Part shown: positions 5,169-29,494 of the stretch, piece by piece | Position numbering within the stretch: the stretch's first letter is position 1 | Layout: every line of letters begins with the position of its first letter | Assembly (NCBI GenBank): GCA_903912795.1 | Contig: CAIWIS010000793.1 | Location: 1-32,165, forward strand | Source: an uncultured Bacteroidales bacterium | Lineage (GTDB): Bacteria; Bacteroidota; Bacteroidia; Bacteroidales; Paludibacteraceae | Length of the DNA stretch: 32,165 bases | Direction: 5' to 3' | The notes under the pieces: generated by a model | What the model was told of the DNA's origin: nothing | Seen by the model: only the letters and a program-made list of their open reading frames with translations | Database searches by the model: none | Translations under genes and position numbers: made by a program

Positions 5169-5174
5169 TAAAAG

Positions 5175-5202
5175 TTAGAAATTGGAAATTAGAAATTAGA
5201 AA
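5175..5202 (+). repeat. 4 x 7-nt tandem repeat (TTAGAAA/TTGGAAA) next to the trpS start
   Basis: TTAGAAA TTGGAAA TTAGAAA TTAGAAA. Confidence 0.75.
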
Positions 5203-5220
5203 AATAAGAAATTTAATAAC

Positions 5221-5354
5221 GTACGAAGCACCTAACAACGCACGAAGTGCTAATAACACGAAGCTAATAACGGCGAAGCCCAATTAACGCACGAAGTGCA
5301 AAATAACGGCGAAGCCCCATTAACGCACGAAGTGCAAAATAAAGTGCGAAGCAC
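5221..5354 (+). repeat. GAA-triloop mini-hairpin array A (8 units)
   Basis: gtacgaagcac, gcacgaagtgc, cacgaagc, ggcgaagcc, gcacgaagtgc, ggcgaagcc, gcacgaagtgc, gtgcgaagcac, separated by AT-rich (n)TAA-containing spacers. Confidence 0.9.
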
Positions 5355-5810
5355 CTATTCAATAGGTACGGTGCGTTTAATACGTTGGTCGAGTGAGGTA
5401 AGTGTCTCAGTGGAAGCAACACCAGGAATTTCCTGAATACGACCATTGAGAAGTTCCATAAGGTGCTCATCGTTTTTGGCATATAATTTTACCAAAATGG
5501 TGTAATGTCCCAACGTATATTGCGACTCAACAATTTCGGGGATTTGTTCCAACTGATTAACAACTTCCTTGTACATAGAACCACGCTCAAGCGTAATACC
5601 CACATAAACACACATTTGGAAGCCCAACATTTTAGGATTAACATTGTAGCCCGAACCTGTAATAACATCCAAATCAATAAGTCGCTGAACGCGTTGATGA
5701 ATAGCTGCACGCGAAACACCACACTCTTCGGCTACATCCTTAAAAGGCATGCGTGCATTTTGAGTGATAATACGTAATATTTTACGATCTAGTTGATCAA
5801 TCTTTTCCAT
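5355..5810 (-). CDS. Lrp/AsnC family transcriptional regulator
   Basis: LDRKILRIITQNARMPFKDVAEECGVSRAAIHQRVQRLIDLDVITGSGYNVNPKMLG plus an RAM-like C-terminal domain. Confidence 0.93.
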   Translation of the reverse strand: MEKIDQLDRKILRIITQNARMPFKDVAEECGVSRAAIHQRVQRLIDLDVITGSGYNVNPKMLGFQMCVYVGITLERGSMYKEVVNQLEQIPEIVESQYTLGHYTILVKLYAKNDEHLMELLNGRIQEIPGVASTETLTSLDQRIKRTVPIE

Positions 5811-6022: not shown

Positions 6023-7192
6023 TCAATTTCGGGGAGGATTTTTCTTTAAAGTTACAAAATCGTTTCGTTTTCCTGCAAAAATATCATAACAATTGTACCA
6101 ACATTCAAGAGTGCCATTTAGTAAATTAATACGACTGGATGATTTTAGTCCAATTTTATCCAGACATTCGATGTGCGAGCTAATTAACCAACACTTTGAA
6201 CCCTGAAATTTATGTTTAAAGGTAGAGCCTATTGAGGCATATAATCCTAAAATATCATCGGAAGTGATACGTTCGCCATAAGGAGGGTTAGTAACCAACA
6301 AGCATCCTTCGGATGGAGTTACAACATATTTGATGCCTTTTACTTCCAAACTAATGTATTTGGTTAAACCAGCACTTTTCACATTCTGCTCGCTAATACC
6401 GATGGCACGTTGCGAAATATCCGAACCATATATTTTGAAATTGAAAGGACGTTCGTTGGAATCGTCGTGATATATTTCGTCGAAAAGCTCTTGATCAAAA
6501 TCGAGCCATTTTTCGAAACCAAACGATGACCGATACAAGCCAGGAGGAATATTTAATGCAATTAATGCCGCTTCGATCAACAAAGTTCCAGAGCCACACA
6601 TTGGATCAATAAAATCGCTTTTCCCATCCCATCCAGCCATGAGCAACATACCAGCAGCCAAAGCTTCGTTGAGTGGAGCTTCGTTTTGCGAAATACGATA
6701 GCCACGTTTATGAAGCGAGTCGCCTGAGCTATCGAGCAATACAGTACAACGTGTACCCGCAATGTGAATGTGGATGGTGAGGTGTGGATTGTCTAATTTT
6801 ACCGAAGGACGGTCGCCGGTTTTATCGCGAAACCAATCAACAATTGCATCTTTTACACGATAGGACACAAATTTTGAATGCTTAAACTCTTCCGAATAAA
6901 CGGTGGCTTCGATAGCAAAAGTTGTTTTCAACGACATAAAGTCGAGCCAATTAATGTCTTTCACCTTATCGTACACTTCATCGGCATCTTTAGCCGTAAA
7001 TGTAGTAATGGTTTTAAGCACACGCGATGCAGTACGCAAATGCATGTTGGCTTTGTACATCAAGGCTTTATCACCTGTAAAACTAACAGCTCTGCGCTGT
7101 AATTCTACATTATTAGCACCTAATTTTACCAACTCTGTAGCCAGTACTTCTTCCAAACCCATAAAGGTTTTGGCAATCATTTCGTATTCCAT
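6023..7192 (-). CDS. THUMP-domain class I SAM-dependent RNA methyltransferase (RlmL/YpsC-like)
   Basis: GWDGKSDFIDPMCGSGTLLIEAALIALNIPPG and LLVTNPPYGER (NPPY) motifs; N-terminal THUMP-like region. Confidence 0.92.
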   Translation of the reverse strand: MEYEMIAKTFMGLEEVLATELVKLGANNVELQRRAVSFTGDKALMYKANMHLRTASRVLKTITTFTAKDADEVYDKVKDINWLDFMSLKTTFAIEATVYSEEFKHSKFVSYRVKDAIVDWFRDKTGDRPSVKLDNPHLTIHIHIAGTRCTVLLDSSGDSLHKRGYRISQNEAPLNEALAAGMLLMAGWDGKSDFIDPMCGSGTLLIEAALIALNIPPGLYRSSFGFEKWLDFDQELFDEIYHDDSNERPFNFKIYGSDISQRAIGISEQNVKSAGLTKYISLEVKGIKYVVTPSEGCLLVTNPPYGERITSDDILGLYASIGSTFKHKFQGSKCWLISSHIECLDKIGLKSSSRINLLNGTLECWYNCYDIFAGKRNDFVTLKKNPPRN

Positions 7193-7212
7193 CTATTTTT
7201 TTTTGTTATTTG

Positions 7213-7393
7213 GGCTTCGCCGTTATTTGGCACTTCGTGCGTTAATATAGGCTTCGCCGTTAATAGTGCTTTGCACGTTAATTGGCACTTCGTGCGTTAA
7301 TATAGGCTTCGCCGTTATTAGCTTCGCGTTATTTGGCACTTCGTGCGTTATTTGCATTGCGTTATTAGGTGCTTCGCACGTTAATAGCTTCGC
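7213..7393 (-). repeat. GAA-triloop mini-hairpin array B (11 units; GAA on the minus, coding strand)
   Basis: Plus strand shows ggcttcgcc, gcacttcgtgc, ggcttcgcc, gtgctttgcac, gcacttcgtgc, ggcttcgcc, gcttcgc, gcacttcgtgc, gcattgc, gtgcttcgcac, gcttcgc. Confidence 0.9.
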
Positions 7394-7425
7394 ATTATTT
7401 AATTTCTAATATCTTCATGTTTTCT

Positions 7426-7465
7426 TCTCATCATCACATTACCATATCATCACATTATCTCATCA
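7426..7465 (-). repeat. 5 x 8-nt tandem repeat overlapping the cysE stop codon
   Basis: Minus strand: TGATGAGA TAATGTGA TGATATGG TAATGTGA TGATGAGA. Confidence 0.85.
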
Positions 7466-10771: not shown

Positions 10772-12823
10772 TTATCTGAAAATCTTAATAATTTCGCTAC
10801 TATTGTTGTCTGCTACTTTTAAAAAGTAAAATCCTGGTTTTGTGAGATGAATTGAAGCTACAGGTGAGTTGTGTTGGCCAGCCTGAATTACTTGACCACT
10901 GGCATTGAATAAAGTCAAATATGCATTTTTTGGTATATTTTGAACATTCAGCGTGCTAAATTGTACATTCCATGCAACTTTTCGTTTCACATTTCGAGCC
11001 GTATTTGTAGTGATATCGGTATGTGCTTTAATCTGATTCGACTCAGTTGGATTAGTAATTCCTTGTGGTTTAACGGTGAAATAATAGGTTGAGTCAGTGT
11101 TTAGTCCTGTTATTGTATAGGTTGTGGTATTTCCAACTGGTTTAGGAAAGGTGTTTTCAACAACACGATACATAATGGGGATAAGCTCTTCCACTTTTAG
11201 GTAGTCAATATATACCCTTTTGCCAGCTATGGCCGAAAATGCTAGCACAGTGTTGGCGGTTTTGGGAGATATATCAATTGTAAATGTTTGGTTAGCAACA
11301 GCTGTTGTCCATACGGTTTGTTCAATATTATTAGCAGTAAAAGTAAGTTTTGCTCCAGTGTCAGATGAATACTGACGTGCTTTTACAGTAATGCGCGCTC
11401 CATTTTCGCTCAGATTCATAGGTTCTATACTCAATTTGCCGTAGGTGCTTGTTGACCCTAACTTAAAATTGCTTGCTGTGGCTTGGTCGGTATAACCTTC
11501 GCGCGACCAAGTGTTCGAAATGGTGAATATAAATTCCTCGTCCACTTTGGTTACCGCATTAAATGTACCCGTGGGTCGAAGTGAAAACACATTCAGTTCA
11601 TAGCTTGTAGCGCCATTAGCAATAGTCCAATTGGCATCAAAACCTGTAGAACGTATGTTGGTTGCTGGTAATGCAACAAAGGCATCTGATATTTCTGTTT
11701 TCAGTTTTACCGAAAGTGCATTTATACCGCCTCCGGACACATTTAGAAATGCAGATTTCATTCCAGCTTGCTGTCCGCTTACAGTTATTATAAGTTCGGT
11801 ACCCGCTTCAGCCTCCGCTTTCGGAATACTATTGCGCGACAAAGTATAATTTGCTGCATTTGTGCCACTCAACGAAAAATTTAATTGTCCAGTCAGGTTA
11901 TTGGCTTTAATTGGGATATTAAATGTAATTGGCTTTTGAACGTAAACTAAAGGTGTAGTTACACTATCGTTGTTATCGGGATAATTGAGATAAGGGAAAC
12001 TGACTGATCCGTTCTCGGTAAAGGGCATCGTTATGCGGTTTCCCCAAACATATTCGGCCATAAGCGGAAAATCGATGTATGGATTTCGATTACCTTGAAT
12101 ACTGTAGATTATGTTGTTTCGATTAGTTTCTTTTGTGCTCACAGGATCTTGTCTACTCCATTGCAACAATAAATCCATAGCCCATTTTTCAAAAACAGGG
12201 TAGGTGTTATTGTCCAATTGATGTTCCGAATCTGCTGTCCAAAGTGGGGCGTAATCTTCGTAAGCCGTTACCATATACATATAAACACGTGCAAAATCGC
12301 CTTTGTATTCATCGGTCGGCTCCCATGCCGATAGTAAATAGCCTGCTTTTTGTTTGGTTTTGCCCACTTTTATCACGCCATTGGTATAGGTAAGGGTTGA
12401 GTCAATAACCGACATAACAAAAGCACTTTTGCGCTGGTTAGCAGTAGCGTCGGACGGGTTGAGATGGTGTAAGTCTTTATAGGCTTGTGTTTCGGTGCCG
12501 CCCCACCAACTTTTGGCAAACGAATGTTCGATGTTCATACCTGTAACAGCCAAATTGCCATTGAAAACACGAACCACATCCGAATACATATCCCAAATTG
12601 AGCCATCGGTAGGACGTACATCTGTTTGCACAAAACCCGACCATGTTTTCCCATCGCCACCACCGTAACTGAGCACTGTGGCTGTTTTAATTTTTTGGTG
12701 TAATGCCGTTTTTAGAGATGACTTTTTAAGTCCCACTGCAGTGCTGTAATAGCCTAATGGGATTTGAGAATAGCTTGTAATCGAAATTACAAGTAAGAAT
12801 ACAAGATTCTTAAATTTAAACAT
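10772..12823 (-). CDS. Secreted endonuclease I family protein with accessory domains and T9SS-like C-terminal sorting tail
   Basis: Signal peptide; NIEHSFAKSWWGG...DLHHLNPSDATANQRKS...QGNRNPYIDFP; C-terminal GFYFLKVADNNSSEIIKIFR. Confidence 0.88.
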   Translation of the reverse strand: MFKFKNLVFLLVISITSYSQIPLGYYSTAVGLKKSSLKTALHQKIKTATVLSYGGGDGKTWSGFVQTDVRPTDGSIWDMYSDVVRVFNGNLAVTGMNIEHSFAKSWWGGTETQAYKDLHHLNPSDATANQRKSAFVMSVIDSTLTYTNGVIKVGKTKQKAGYLLSAWEPTDEYKGDFARVYMYMVTAYEDYAPLWTADSEHQLDNNTYPVFEKWAMDLLLQWSRQDPVSTKETNRNNIIYSIQGNRNPYIDFPLMAEYVWGNRITMPFTENGSVSFPYLNYPDNNDSVTTPLVYVQKPITFNIPIKANNLTGQLNFSLSGTNAANYTLSRNSIPKAEAEAGTELIITVSGQQAGMKSAFLNVSGGGINALSVKLKTEISDAFVALPATNIRSTGFDANWTIANGATSYELNVFSLRPTGTFNAVTKVDEEFIFTISNTWSREGYTDQATASNFKLGSTSTYGKLSIEPMNLSENGARITVKARQYSSDTGAKLTFTANNIEQTVWTTAVANQTFTIDISPKTANTVLAFSAIAGKRVYIDYLKVEELIPIMYRVVENTFPKPVGNTTTYTITGLNTDSTYYFTVKPQGITNPTESNQIKAHTDITTNTARNVKRKVAWNVQFSTLNVQNIPKNAYLTLFNASGQVIQAGQHNSPVASIHLTKPGFYFLKVADNNSSEIIKIFR

Positions 12824-13008
12824 TTTGTTTCAGTTATTACAGCTTTTCACACTGCCATTCTTTTTATTATTCTGAAACAAATAAAAAATCAAGCAAGATA
12901 TAGTGGTGTATGTATTTTCAAGATAAAAAGAGCAAAGACAAAAGACAAAAAACAAGTACTCGAAACCTTTTTTGTTATTACAAATAACAAATCCATATGC
13001 AGAAAGTT

Positions 13009-15054
13009 TTAGTAAACTACTTTTAGACTGACCGTATAACTACTTGTCATAATTTGAATAAAATAAACTCCTTTTGTTGTAAGACTTAGAATTGTATTTT
13101 CATTGTTACATATAATTGTATTAATTCGTTTTCCGGAAATATCCGAAACTAAAATTTTGCAACTGTGCGGAAGCCCTGTTAAAAACACTCCATTGGACGA
13201 TTTACTCCAGCTTATTGTATTGCCATTCAAATTAGGTAATGCGTTAGCGAGCAATGTTTTAACCAGAACCGGATCGGTTTTAATACTTGAATTATTTTGC
13301 GGACTTACAGTATAATAATAACTTGAGTCGGGTAGCAAACCTAAAACATCGTATTGCAAAATATTACCTACATTTTTGGGGTAGCCACTTACAGATATTT
13401 CAGTTTGAACGGCTCCAACTGTTTCCACTTTTACATTGTCCAAATAAACTCTACTGCTTGCATTGGCGGCAAATGCGATTTTGGAATTGGCTGTTGCCTT
13501 TGGTATATTTACTGTATAGGTTTGGGCGGTGCTGCTAGTATTCCATAAAGCTAACGGATTTCCATCTAAAGTTACTGTGAGTGGAGCACCTGTATCCGTA
13601 TTGTATTGTTTTGCACGTACGGTGAGTAAATTTCCATCCGTAGCCAAATTAAGTGCAGGTGTAGTTAATTTTCCATTTGAACTCGACGAGGCAATACGCA
13701 TAAAACCTGTTGTCTGATTATCGGTATAGCCTTCGCTCAGCCAGCTAGTTGGTAATCCAGAAGCAAACTCTTCTTCGAGTAGGGTTTTGGTCTGAGTTGA
13801 ACCGGAGCTTTTCAGCGAGTAAACATTTAAATCATACCCAGTAGCCGTTGCCGAGCTGGTCCATTTGGCAGTAAAGCTATTTGAAGTTATATTCGTAGCA
13901 GCTAAAGCCATAAAATTATCGGTAGTTTGTGCTGTTAAATTAAGTGTAGTAGGACTAATTCCGCCACCCGAAATTAATAATTGCGCAGTATGTGTTCCTA
14001 TTGTTTGAGTGTTATAAGTTAGGGTGAGAACATAGCCTGTTTCAGCTTCGGTTTTAGTAAGTGTAGTTTTAGAAATACTAAAAAGGGATGCGTTAGTTCC
14101 TGAAATTGAAAGTGATAGTTCTCCTGTTAGGTTTGCTCCTTTAATTGTAACTTCAATGTTCTTAGTTTGTTGATATGCCATTTTTCCTAAATCAAGAGTT
14201 GTAGCATTAATAGGACTTGTCAGATAGGGCGTAGTGGTATTTCCATTCGGATCAAATGGTAGATTTGTGAATTTCCCCCAAATATATTCGCCCAAAATTG
14301 GATAATCAATATAGGGATTGCGGTTTCCTTGTACTTTATAAACTTCGTTGTGACGTGTAATTTCTTTTTGACTTAATGGGTCTTGAGCGTTCCATTTTAG
14401 CAATAAATCTACCGTCCATTGTTCAAAAACCGGATATGTATTATTATTTAGTTGATTTACCGAATTTCCTGTCCAAAGTGTAGCATAATCTTCGTAAGCA
14501 GTAACCATATACATATACATACGTGCAAAATCACCTTTATAATCGTCGGCTGGTTCCCACGCATCAATAACACCACCTGGCCTACTGCTCGATTTGCCAA
14601 CTTTAATAACTCCATTACTGTATGTGGTAGAGCCATCAACTACGGCCATAGGCCAACTCCCTTTTGCACTGTTTGCTGTTGTGTTAGATGGGCACAAATG
14701 CTGCACATCCTGAGCGGCCTGACGGCCATCGCCCCACCAACTTTTAGCAAACGAATGTTCAATATTCATACCGCTTGCAGCCGAATTGCCATTAAAAGCC
14801 ACGTGATTATTCGAATACATATCCCAAACAGTGCCATCCTCGGGGCGTACATCCGATTTAGCAAATACCGACCAAGTGCTACCGGAGCCACTACCATAAC
14901 TCGGAACATTGGCAGTTTTGATTTTTAAATGCAAAGCAGTTTTAAGTTCAGCCTGCTTTTTACCAATTGCAGAGTCGTAATATCCAGTAGGGATTTGCGC
15001 CAGTACAGTAAACACCAGCAGCATGTAAAGTTGAAAAAAGAAAAGTCGTTTCAT
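13009..15054 (-). CDS. Secreted endonuclease I family protein, paralog 2, T9SS-like C-terminal tail
   Basis: NIEHSFAKSWWGDGRQAAQDVQHLCPSNTTANSAKG...VQGNRNPYIDYP; same layout as 10772..12823. Confidence 0.88.
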   Translation of the reverse strand: MKRLFFFQLYMLLVFTVLAQIPTGYYDSAIGKKQAELKTALHLKIKTANVPSYGSGSGSTWSVFAKSDVRPEDGTVWDMYSNNHVAFNGNSAASGMNIEHSFAKSWWGDGRQAAQDVQHLCPSNTTANSAKGSWPMAVVDGSTTYSNGVIKVGKSSSRPGGVIDAWEPADDYKGDFARMYMYMVTAYEDYATLWTGNSVNQLNNNTYPVFEQWTVDLLLKWNAQDPLSQKEITRHNEVYKVQGNRNPYIDYPILGEYIWGKFTNLPFDPNGNTTTPYLTSPINATTLDLGKMAYQQTKNIEVTIKGANLTGELSLSISGTNASLFSISKTTLTKTEAETGYVLTLTYNTQTIGTHTAQLLISGGGISPTTLNLTAQTTDNFMALAATNITSNSFTAKWTSSATATGYDLNVYSLKSSGSTQTKTLLEEEFASGLPTSWLSEGYTDNQTTGFMRIASSSSNGKLTTPALNLATDGNLLTVRAKQYNTDTGAPLTVTLDGNPLALWNTSSTAQTYTVNIPKATANSKIAFAANASSRVYLDNVKVETVGAVQTEISVSGYPKNVGNILQYDVLGLLPDSSYYYTVSPQNNSSIKTDPVLVKTLLANALPNLNGNTISWSKSSNGVFLTGLPHSCKILVSDISGKRINTIICNNENTILSLTTKGVYFIQIMTSSYTVSLKVVY

Positions 15055-15132
15055 ATAAAACTATTATGCATTAAAAAAGAGAAAAAGCAACTCAATTTGC
15101 AATTTCTCTTTCCTTATTCTAATTGCTGATTA

Positions 15133-16185
15133 TTAATTATTTACCACAAATTTTTTAATCGATTTTCGATTGCCCATTTGTAGTTCAATAAAATACATAC
15201 CATCGTTGAGTTGTTCAATAGAAATGGTACCCGAAGTATTTAATTTTTTGCTCTCAACCAACATGCCATTGAGCGAAATTATGCGGTAAGTTGTATTTTG
15301 TTCGTCGGTTTTTACATTCAGAAATTTCGATGCAGGATTAGGCGAAACACTAAATTCAATTTTCAAATCATTTATGCCCGAGGTGATTGACCATGGAGTT
15401 CCTTTTTTGGTTCCCCAAATATGCTCTGCAAGCATTGGGTAGTCAATAAATGGGTTACGGTTTCCTTGGACACCCTGAGAAGCATTATTTCTATTTGTTT
15501 CTTTGCTGCTGACAGGGTCTTGTCTATGCCATTTTAGAAAAAGGGCTACGGAATATGTTGACAATCCGTTGTTAGGCCCATAAACAACATTTGCTCCAGA
15601 ACCCCAATTTTGACAAACACTGGCATAGCATGTTGCCATATATAAACAAGTTCTGGCTAGGTCACCTTTAAACTCATTTATAGGCTCAAATACTGTTCCG
15701 CTATATTCGGGCATACTTGAAGTTCCTAATTTTGAACCATTACCTGATGTGTAATTTGCCGATGCAACTTCACCATATGGATAATTTCCTCGCATGCCAT
15801 TTACTTTAGTGTCAGTGGGATATACATTAAAAATATCACTCACCATTGGAGACGCTTCTCCGAACCAACTTTGAGGCGTCGTGTGTTCCCGATTGTAATT
15901 TGTACATTCAGCACCTGTTGTACCATGGTTTTCATCAGTGCCATACGTGAAATTACAATTTGAATACATATCCCAAATTTTACCATTTGATGGGTTGATA
16001 TCTGTTTTGTTATATGCAGAATATAATCCTGAGTATGATGTGACGTTTGGATTTCCAATTATCGATGACAATGTTGTTCTAAGTAAATTGTCAGATTTTC
16101 CCACTGCATTATTGTAATAAGTTGGACTTGGTTGAGCAAATGCTAGAACTGGATATAGAATTAATAAAAGTAACAATTTACGCAT
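15133..16185 (-). CDS. Secreted endonuclease I family protein, short paralog 3, T9SS-like C-terminal tail
   Basis: NREHTTPQSWFGEASPMVSDIFNVYPTDTKVNGMRGNYPYGEV...QGNRNPFIDYP; C-terminal GMYFIELQMGNRKSIKKFVV. Confidence 0.92.
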   Translation of the reverse strand: MRKLLLLLILYPVLAFAQPSPTYYNNAVGKSDNLLRTTLSSIIGNPNVTSYSGLYSAYNKTDINPSNGKIWDMYSNCNFTYGTDENHGTTGAECTNYNREHTTPQSWFGEASPMVSDIFNVYPTDTKVNGMRGNYPYGEVASANYTSGNGSKLGTSSMPEYSGTVFEPINEFKGDLARTCLYMATCYASVCQNWGSGANVVYGPNNGLSTYSVALFLKWHRQDPVSSKETNRNNASQGVQGNRNPFIDYPMLAEHIWGTKKGTPWSITSGINDLKIEFSVSPNPASKFLNVKTDEQNTTYRIISLNGMLVESKKLNTSGTISIEQLNDGMYFIELQMGNRKSIKKFVVNN

Positions 16186-18052: not shown

Positions 18053-18082
18053 TGTGCCAATGTGATAATATGGTGATGTGGA
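18051..18082 (+). repeat. 4 x 8-nt tandem repeat starting within the rsmH stop codon
   Basis: AATGTGCC AATGTGAT AATATGGT GATGTGGA. Confidence 0.8.
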
Positions 18083-18110
18083 GATAAAAGAAATTAAACA
18101 ATAAACTAAC

Positions 18111-18178
18111 GCACGAAGTGCCCTTTAGCGGCGAAGCCCAAGTAAACGGCATAGCCCAAATAAAAACGCACGAAGTGC
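18111..18178 (+). repeat. GAA-triloop mini-hairpin array C (4 units) between rsmH and the ftsL-like gene
   Basis: gcacgaagtgc, ggcgaagcc, ggcatagcc, gcacgaagtgc. Confidence 0.88.
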
Positions 18179-18188
18179 CTACAAAAAA

Positions 18189-18578
18189 ATGAGTTGGATA
18201 CGTAAAATAGCGGAGGCCATTAAAGGCAATGAAGATTTCAATGATTTGAAATCGAGCACGTTGCGCGACATAATCAATGGTAATATTCTAACAAAAAAGT
18301 TTTTACAAAAACAATATCCATTTCTTATTATGTTGGCTTTTATTGCTTTTTTGTATGTTGATAATCGGTATTATTGCGAAACACAATTATCAAAAGCATT
18401 GAAATTAAAACGCGAAATACAAGACATAAAATACGAATCGCTCACAATCTCGGCCGAGCTGATGGAAATTAGCCGACAATCGAATGTTCGTAAAATGATA
18501 TATGATAGAGGATTAACGCTTTCGGAATCGAATACACCACCGATTGTTTTAGAGGTGAAAGTAGCAGAAGAAAAATAA
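18189..18578 (+). CDS. FtsL-like cell division protein
   Basis: Single TM (PFLIMLAFIAFLYVDNRYY) plus short coiled region; position between rsmH and ftsI. Confidence 0.75.
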   Translation: MSWIRKIAEAIKGNEDFNDLKSSTLRDIINGNILTKKFLQKQYPFLIMLAFIAFLYVDNRYYCETQLSKALKLKREIQDIKYESLTISAELMEISRQSNVRKMIYDRGLTLSESNTPPIVLEVKVAEEK

Positions 18579-26126: not shown

Positions 26127-26156
26127 CGCTCGGCTTTGCCGCTTGGCGCAGCCAAG
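26127..26156 (+). repeat. 30-nt hairpin pair CGGC-TTT-GCCG and CTTGGC-GCA-GCCAAG within the octamer array
   Basis: Two perfect stems (26131-26141, 26142-26156) flanked by AATGTGCC and AATGTGAA. Confidence 0.8.
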
Positions 26157-26188
26157 AATGTGAAAATGTGCCAATTTGAAAATTAGGA
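26157..26188 (+). repeat. 4 x 8-nt tandem repeat downstream of ftsW; a further AATGTGCC at 26119-26126 overlaps the ftsW stop
   Basis: AATGTGAA AATGTGCC AATTTGAA AATTAGGA. Confidence 0.75.
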
Positions 26189-26195
26189 ATATAAC

Positions 26196-26297
26196 GGCAA
26201 AGCTTAATAACAATTAATAACGCACGAAGTGCAAATAACGGCGAAGCCCAACTAACGCACGAAGTGCCAAAATAACGTGAAGCTAATAACGCGAAGC
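26196..26297 (+). repeat. GAA-triloop mini-hairpin array D (6 units) between ftsW and murG
   Basis: ggcaaagct, gcacgaagtgc, ggcgaagcc, gcacgaagtgc, cgtgaagc, gcgaagc. Confidence 0.88.
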
Positions 26298-28912: not shown

Positions 28913-29494
28913 ATGTCTGAAAATTTACAGCTCCAACCCACTGAAATTCAAGATAAAATCTTTACAATTCGTGGACAACGTGTTATGATTGACCGTGATT
29001 TAGCCGAAATTTATGGTGTAGAGACACGAGTTTTAAATCAGGCAGTTAAACGAAACATGGAGCGATTCCCCGAAGATTTCATGTTTCAGCTTACTGAAAT
29101 TGAATGGCAATATATGTCGTCACAATTTGTGATGACATCAAAATCAAAACGTCCTAAATCTGCTTTACCTTTAGTTTTTACCGAACATGGCGTTACAATG
29201 TTATCAAGCGTACTAAGAAGCAATACAGCAATTCAGATTAATATTCAGATTGTGCGTGCATTTGTAGCTATTCGTAACTTGTTGCCAGTTAAACCTGCTG
29301 ATAAGGTTATTGAACTTCAATCTGAACTCAAGGAGTTAAAAGCCTATATCGAAGATGTTTTTACGGATTACAACGACATTAACGAAGATACCCGAGTTCA
29401 AATTGAACTCATTAATCAATCTTTAGCTGAGTTGCATACCGACAGAAAGCGAACAGATAAGCCTCGAAATAGAATTGGGTTTATTAAGGAATGA
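28913..29494 (+). CDS. ORF6N domain-containing protein (phage/mobile-element-associated DNA-binding family)
   Basis: IFTIRGQRVMIDRDLAEIYGVETRVLNQAVKRNMERFPEDFMFQLTEIE and PLVFTEHGVTMLSSVLRS. Confidence 0.9.
   Translation: MSENLQLQPTEIQDKIFTIRGQRVMIDRDLAEIYGVETRVLNQAVKRNMERFPEDFMFQLTEIEWQYMSSQFVMTSKSKRPKSALPLVFTEHGVTMLSSVLRSNTAIQINIQIVRAFVAIRNLLPVKPADKVIELQSELKELKAYIEDVFTDYNDINEDTRVQIELINQSLAELHTDRKRTDKPRNRIGFIKE

Follow-up and report, generated by a model that had tools for sequence, protein, structure and literature searches.

The window, a stretch of 32,165 nt, belongs to a draft Paludibacter-type Bacteroidota MAG of 926 contigs (G000) and carries four arrays of short hairpin units. Our subject, array B, occupies the spacer between a cysE-like gene and rlmL on the minus strand. 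The relevant features are as follows.

5221–5354, plus strand: array A, 8 units of the same family as array B, between trpS and an Lrp-like gene
6023–7192, minus strand: RlmL/THUMP-type methyltransferase gene (rlmL; Pfam PF22020, PF02926, PF01170), at which array B points
7193–7212, minus strand: unpaired, A-rich gap of 20 nt between array B and the rlmL ATG (AAATAACAAAAAAAAATAG-ATG)
7213–7393, minus strand: array B, 11 mini-hairpin units, read from the sequence
7221–7321, minus strand: block duplication in array B (7221–7266 versus 7276–7321; 46 nt, 96% identical, 55 nt apart)
7354–7360, minus strand: clearest decayed unit of array B, GC-AAT-GC, with a non-GNA loop (GCATTGC on the plus strand)
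7394–7462, minus strand: leader 5′ of array B, low-complexity short tandem words (GATGTG.., ATTAGAA..) reaching the cysE-like stop codon
7463–8422, minus strand: serine acetyltransferase (cysE)-like gene behind array B (Pfam hexapeptide repeats); its synteny with rlmL is kept in the genus
18111–18178, plus strand: array C, 4 units immediately before an ftsL-like gene (ATG at 18189)
26197–26297, plus strand: array D, 6 units immediately before murG

For the cysE-like gene, an internal ATG is probably the true start. Array A is directed at the Lrp-like gene's stop codon (gene end at 5355), and its folding strand is antisense to both neighbors. Elsewhere in the window, positions 10772–16185 hold three tandem genes for putative secreted endonuclease I-like proteins, judged by the look of the sequence, and a gene with an ORF6N domain (PF10543), typical of phage or mobile DNA, lies at 28913–29494, directly after the division-wall gene cluster.

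Array B and its units

Recounting confirmed the sequence-only reading in its description of 11 units at 7213–7393 with a GAA loop on the coding strand, and of array B as the longest array in the window (the other three have 8, 4 and 6 units). Units 1–6 lie at 7213–7221, 7230–7240, 7250–7258, 7266–7276, 7285–7295 and 7305–7313, and units 7–11 at 7321–7327, 7336–7346, 7354–7360, 7369–7379 and 7387–7393. On the minus strand they read as stem-loops GGC-GAA-GCC, GCAC-GAA-GTGC and GTGC-GAA-GCAC, with one GTGC-AAA-GCAC, two GC-GAA-GC and one GC-AAT-GC among them, and the linker between units is (A)ATAAC or TTAAC. The reported loop variant GTGC-TTT-GCAC was found at 7266–7276 with its stem intact, and the last unit indeed ends 20 nt from the methyltransferase ATG at 7192. 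Shortened units (GCTTCGC) are present at 7321 and 7387 as described; they are not decayed long units, however, because the lengths of the domains between linkers peak strongly at 8, at 10 and at 12 nt, which makes the 7-nt GC-GAA-GC unit a regular class. Mutational decay, also proposed earlier, accounts for only part of the variation. In the tandem-repeat measure the duplicated block has a period of 55 and 2.6 copies, and the leader shows a 16-nt period at 7426–7465.

Taken by itself, array B exceeds chance only moderately: a generic hairpin count gave 8, against a mean of 1.7 and a maximum of 10 in dinucleotide shuffles. The proof rests on the family rather than on the single array. Its total folding energy is ordinary in DNA and RNA models on both strands, no better than shuffles for DNA and slightly better for RNA (z about −1.5); standard energy models may give GNA loops no credit. 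The words themselves are strongly over-represented, with 14 occurrences of GCTTCGC in the window (2.3 expected) and 10 of GCACTTCGTGC (0 expected). The window gave no Rfam match at the gathering threshold, and TAACTGA occurs in it as five single words, none inside arrays.

Genome-wide counts, obtained from pattern searches plus extracted stretches, revealed 47 matches to the unit core GCACTTCGTGC in the whole genome versus 1 in the reversed control, and 70 versus 1 for the tagged unit ATAACGNNCGNAGNNC. Among the 48 genomes of the genus in the collection, G443, G440, G455, G004 and others clearly exceeded their controls, and some other species had zero unit matches in the same pattern search; the named relatives are Paludibacter MAGs. 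Units were also present in MAGs labelled Prevotellaceae, Porphyromonas and Petrimonas, as well as Desulfobacterales, Ruminococcus and Clostridia, with binning errors possible for the last three. In the Desulfobacterales MAG (G460), which is thus open to such an error, there were 15 unit matches versus 3 in the control. Mini-hairpin units from this other phylum, subject to the same caveat, can be seen at loci L073 and L302, and one G460 array, read by eye, apparently faces the stop codon that ends an rpoB-like gene. A class-wide scan of 395 genomes with a two-unit pattern matched the own genome alone, indicating that the element is patchy, and the search of viral contigs for units returned 0 matches.

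Across this family the unit consists of AATAAC, a stem of 2–5 bp and a GNA triloop, giving hairpins of 7–15 nt. What is conserved is pairing: the free stem dinucleotides were complementary in 65 of the 70 listed matches of ATAACGNNCGNAGNNC in the own genome (hand count), and 37 of 65 distinct 11-nt domains across species, delimited solely by linkers, were fully paired, compared with a mean of 3.1 after shuffling of the 3′ letters. Array regions contained 130 triloop hairpins versus 18 after shuffling, a sevenfold enrichment, and no tetraloop hairpins versus 16 expected from shuffling. With any triloop permitted, the tag strand carried GAA 82 times, GTA 20 times and GCA 19 times. The tag is usually TAAC, and often TATC in one genome, G015, whose longer units (GCGAAC-GAA-GTGAGC, GCGACC-GCA-GGGAGC, ACGACC-GAA-GGGAGT, GTGAGC-GTA-GCGAAC) conserve a tandem G.A mismatch (5′-GA/GA-5′) between covarying Watson–Crick pairs under a GNA loop. 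Sites of such units on its contig C1 include 3312416–3312575, 364290–364409 and 927280–927355. The opposite strand would carry TC/TC in place of the tandem G.A mismatch and be destabilised by it, so that the tag strand is the one with structure. Units with a single mismatch had G.T in 8 cases and A.C in 13; with no G.T excess over A.C, no RNA-like tolerance of wobble pairs is seen.

Orientation and variation of the arrays, and a palindrome at their loops

With few exceptions, the arrays are oriented so that the tag strand heads for the closest gene end. With genes called by a simple ORF rule, the gene ahead of the tag strand was the nearer one in 30 of 31 arrays of the own genome (20 at a start and 10 at a stop codon) and in 102 of 113 arrays when eleven sets of loci are taken together; among the 11 exceptions, several lie at very large distances and probably reflect genes that the ORF rule missed. 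The 102 rule-following arrays comprise 61 before start codons and 41 adjoining stop codons, at distances of mostly 5–40 nt and 0–27 nt, respectively, and where two opposed arrays share one spacer, 21 pairs face outward and none inward. P values for this polarity are nominal, because the loci were picked for having arrays and some are orthologous. As start and stop codons are approached alike, the strand that folds is in many cases antisense, and the two kinds of array have tag-strand loops of the same types. With regard to a possible replication-strand origin of the polarity, minus-strand arrays prevail in both chromosome halves of G015, with the origin not fixed by local GC skew. We also observed heptamer-like low-complexity leaders (GATGTG, ATTAGAA and GACAACA types) 5′ of the arrays, at 5170–5215, 7426–7465, 18060–18100 and 26155–26195 in the window; they are purine-rich on the tag strand at starts and stops alike.

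The arrays are variable in length, in agreement with the expansion and contraction suggested earlier: besides the 55-bp block duplication in array B, one locus is represented on two contigs of the own MAG by alleles that have closely similar flanks but 4 units in one case and 8 in the other. Comparison with relatives had been proposed as the check on this idea, with identical units in all of them counting against it. The synteny of cysE and rlmL is kept in most of the genus, and the spacer between them carries arrays in G000, G004 and G443 and a short remnant in G020; in more distant species no array was found there, some having the GATGTG-type leader alone. Thus, orthologous spacers differ in unit number or are without an array, and the units are not identical in all relatives. 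More generally, related species carry arrays sporadically and with differing unit numbers. At the few loci available for comparison, the units nearest the start codon are alike between species and the leader side differs, which suggests that arrays grow away from the gene.

A palindrome is associated with the hairpins as well. The 19-nt palindrome CCTGCCTGC[C/G]GCAGGCAGG has 26 sites in the own genome and 0 in the reversed control, and in 17 of 23 scored copies it lies exactly between a [G/A]NA triloop and the complementary 3′ stem. The stems around it vary (GC, GGC, GGGC, GCAC, TTGGC), and one copy sits outside any array, in a TTGGC-GTA-GCCAA hairpin. Given a local rate of flanking complementarity of 7.4%, this placement at the loop has a nominal P of about 4e-15. 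Such precision suggests that the mini-hairpins are targets as folded structures, into whose loops the palindrome would have moved. Examples of a palindrome at the triloop are found at L142, L139, L351 and L360 in the own genome, L033 in G002 and L289 in G434. The polarity, the palindromes at the loops and the allelic difference in unit number are additions to the sequence-only reading, which had no way of detecting the linker rule, the polarity or the placement at loops. Near array D, at 26131–26156, the window also contains longer REP-like hairpins, CGGCTTTGCCG and CTTGGCGCAGCCAAG, and a hairpin resembling these, at L361, has the 19-nt palindrome within the loop.

What array B may be

We favor, with somewhat better than even confidence, the reading that array B is a single copy of a REP-like repeat that is dispersed among intergenic spacers, is composed of strand-specific ssDNA mini-hairpins and grows by block duplication. 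The arrays appear to be a kind of repetitive DNA not described before, and not a switch of the neighboring gene, and from array B we draw no specific regulation of rlmL. Such an element would act at the DNA level: whenever the tag strand becomes single-stranded, its units would fold, and DNA-processing machinery would recognize or tolerate them as hairpins. The array would lengthen by duplication from its gene-proximal end toward the middle of the spacer, gene ends would limit its extent, and the handling of hairpins would let the second palindrome insert into loops. Our best guess for the first placement of units at new loci is a Y1/HUH-type ssDNA transposase, present or past. Against this REP-like DNA reading, the arrays could be linked to no enzyme, the folding energy of array B is ordinary on both strands, GNA loops and tandem G.A pairs can form in RNA too, and a generic transposition model leaves the outward polarity unexplained.

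The sequence-only reading had implied an RNA or 5′UTR role, and an RNA element, that is, a string of hairpins with A-rich linkers in a 5′UTR (or 3′UTR) tuning translation or mRNA stability, would agree with the 61 of 102 rule-following arrays that end shortly before a start codon; this majority is compatible with a 5′UTR role and so also weighs against the REP-like DNA reading. A-rich linkers, moreover, suit SD-less initiation. A role of this kind has been argued for the similarly placed TAACTGA repeats of Beggiatoaceae (MacGregor 2015, PMC4679880). The main argument against a messenger-RNA role comes from the other 41 arrays, about 40%, which adjoin stop codons and show the same loop spectrum with the hairpin strand antisense. 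In addition, G.T wobble is not enriched, tetraloops are absent, the window is without an Rfam match, the named neighboring genes are unrelated housekeeping genes, and most species of the genus have rlmL orthologues without the array. We therefore regard an RNA element as unlikely, and a cis-regulatory RNA of rlmL as less likely than a REP-like DNA repeat. A plain minisatellite, in which GC-rich words slip neutrally in AT-rich spacers and the hairpins are recognized by nothing, would yield the block duplications and higher-order repeats, the strain-level length alleles and the heptamer-like leaders adjoining the arrays. Slippage copies sequence, however, and does not create different yet complementary stems at different loci; the fixed linkers, the GNA-only loops, the outward polarity and the palindromes placed in loops are likewise unaccounted for, and we consider this explanation very improbable.

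The units could also be true REPs, cognate to a TnpA_REP-like Y1 subfamily of Bacteroidota that cuts beside a TAAC guide. They share with REPs the layout of a 5′ tetranucleotide followed by a triloop hairpin on one strand. Three Y1 transposase genes of the genus (L160, L190, L347) are flanked by AAATATAAC-tagged triloop hairpins whose layout resembles that of array units, and one Y1 subfamily in other species (L182, L348, L339) is flanked by TAAC-GCCCT-GAA-AGGGC hairpins or close variants, a possible bridge to REPs. Y1 genes with atypical structures lacking GTAG are described in Bacteroidetes (Quentin 2018, PMC6006769). The TA[AT]C tag before hairpins at Y1 loci is, however, only two-fold enriched (59 versus 31), and dependence of the arrays on Y1/RAYT across the genus was rejected, as the number of arrays is not in step with Y1 content: in G020 arrays are present but no Y1 transposase was matched, the window's own three Y1 loci have no array units, and none of the Y1 loci examined across the genus is flanked by arrays. 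True REPs are accordingly a distinctly unlikely identity for the units, and we return to the broader REP-like DNA repeat. As a bolder and tentative extension, which we hold to be rather doubtful, the arrays may represent a new class of intergenic DNA element: tandem, strand-specific ssDNA mini-hairpins added outward from the middle of the spacer and capping gene ends at starts and stops alike. The process behind them would produce or preserve new complementary stems with GNA loops, and the element would occur in Bacteroidota and possibly beyond this phylum. If true, GNA DNA hairpins of extraordinary stability, so far studied mainly in test tubes, would have a natural place in a genome, and the orientation of the tag strand toward the closest gene end would constrain any model of intergenic repeats.

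Relation to known systems

In PMC4686876, GNA loops closed by G–C pairs are presented as extraordinarily stable DNA mini-hairpins, with GCGAAGC, a GNA loop on two G–C pairs, melting near 78 °C. Array units have the same features, a GNA loop and at least two G–C stem pairs, and share identical core sequences (GCGAAGC, GNA closed by G–C); the d(GNA) mini-hairpins are synthetic, in vitro objects, whereas those described here form natural genomic arrays, known from sequence alone. Long simple sequence repeats and phase-variation tracts (discussed in PMC4679880) likewise vary in copy number beside start codons, but array units are structured and heterogeneous and are not attached to a contingency-type gene set.

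The REP/BIME system with its TnpA_REP (RAYT) is similar in having short strand-specific hairpins that bear a fixed tetranucleotide on the 5′ side, lie mostly between genes and form clusters in many copies, and insertion sequences are known to target REPs (PMC1525189). The arrays depart from it in their tag (TAAC versus GTAG), in hairpin length (7–15 nt versus a palindrome of about 20–40 nt) and in their stems (2–5 bp versus 5–13 bp), as well as in their tandem same-direction arrangement and outward polarity, and no linked transposase was found. Because tag and length both differ from those of REPs and the arrays could not be linked to a transposase, we compare them to a REP cluster in the way they work but do not count them as REP members.

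Open-access PMC papers, with subscription literature outside the scope of the search, yielded no earlier description of the arrays. The nearest published thing is the family of TAACTGA heptamer direct repeats in Beggiatoaceae, Cyanobacteria and some Bacteroidetes, including P. propionicigenes (MacGregor 2015, PMC4679880), in which 147 of 170 sets are oriented toward a start codon and, less often, sets are reversed beside a stop codon. Both are intergenic tandem repeats that begin with TAAC, occur sporadically among relatives, are directed at start codons and are reversed at stop codons. The TAACTGA repeat is a fixed 7-mer with no hairpin; the arrays instead have a covarying stem-loop with a GNA triloop after each TAAC, frequently lie at stop codons and consist of units of varying length.
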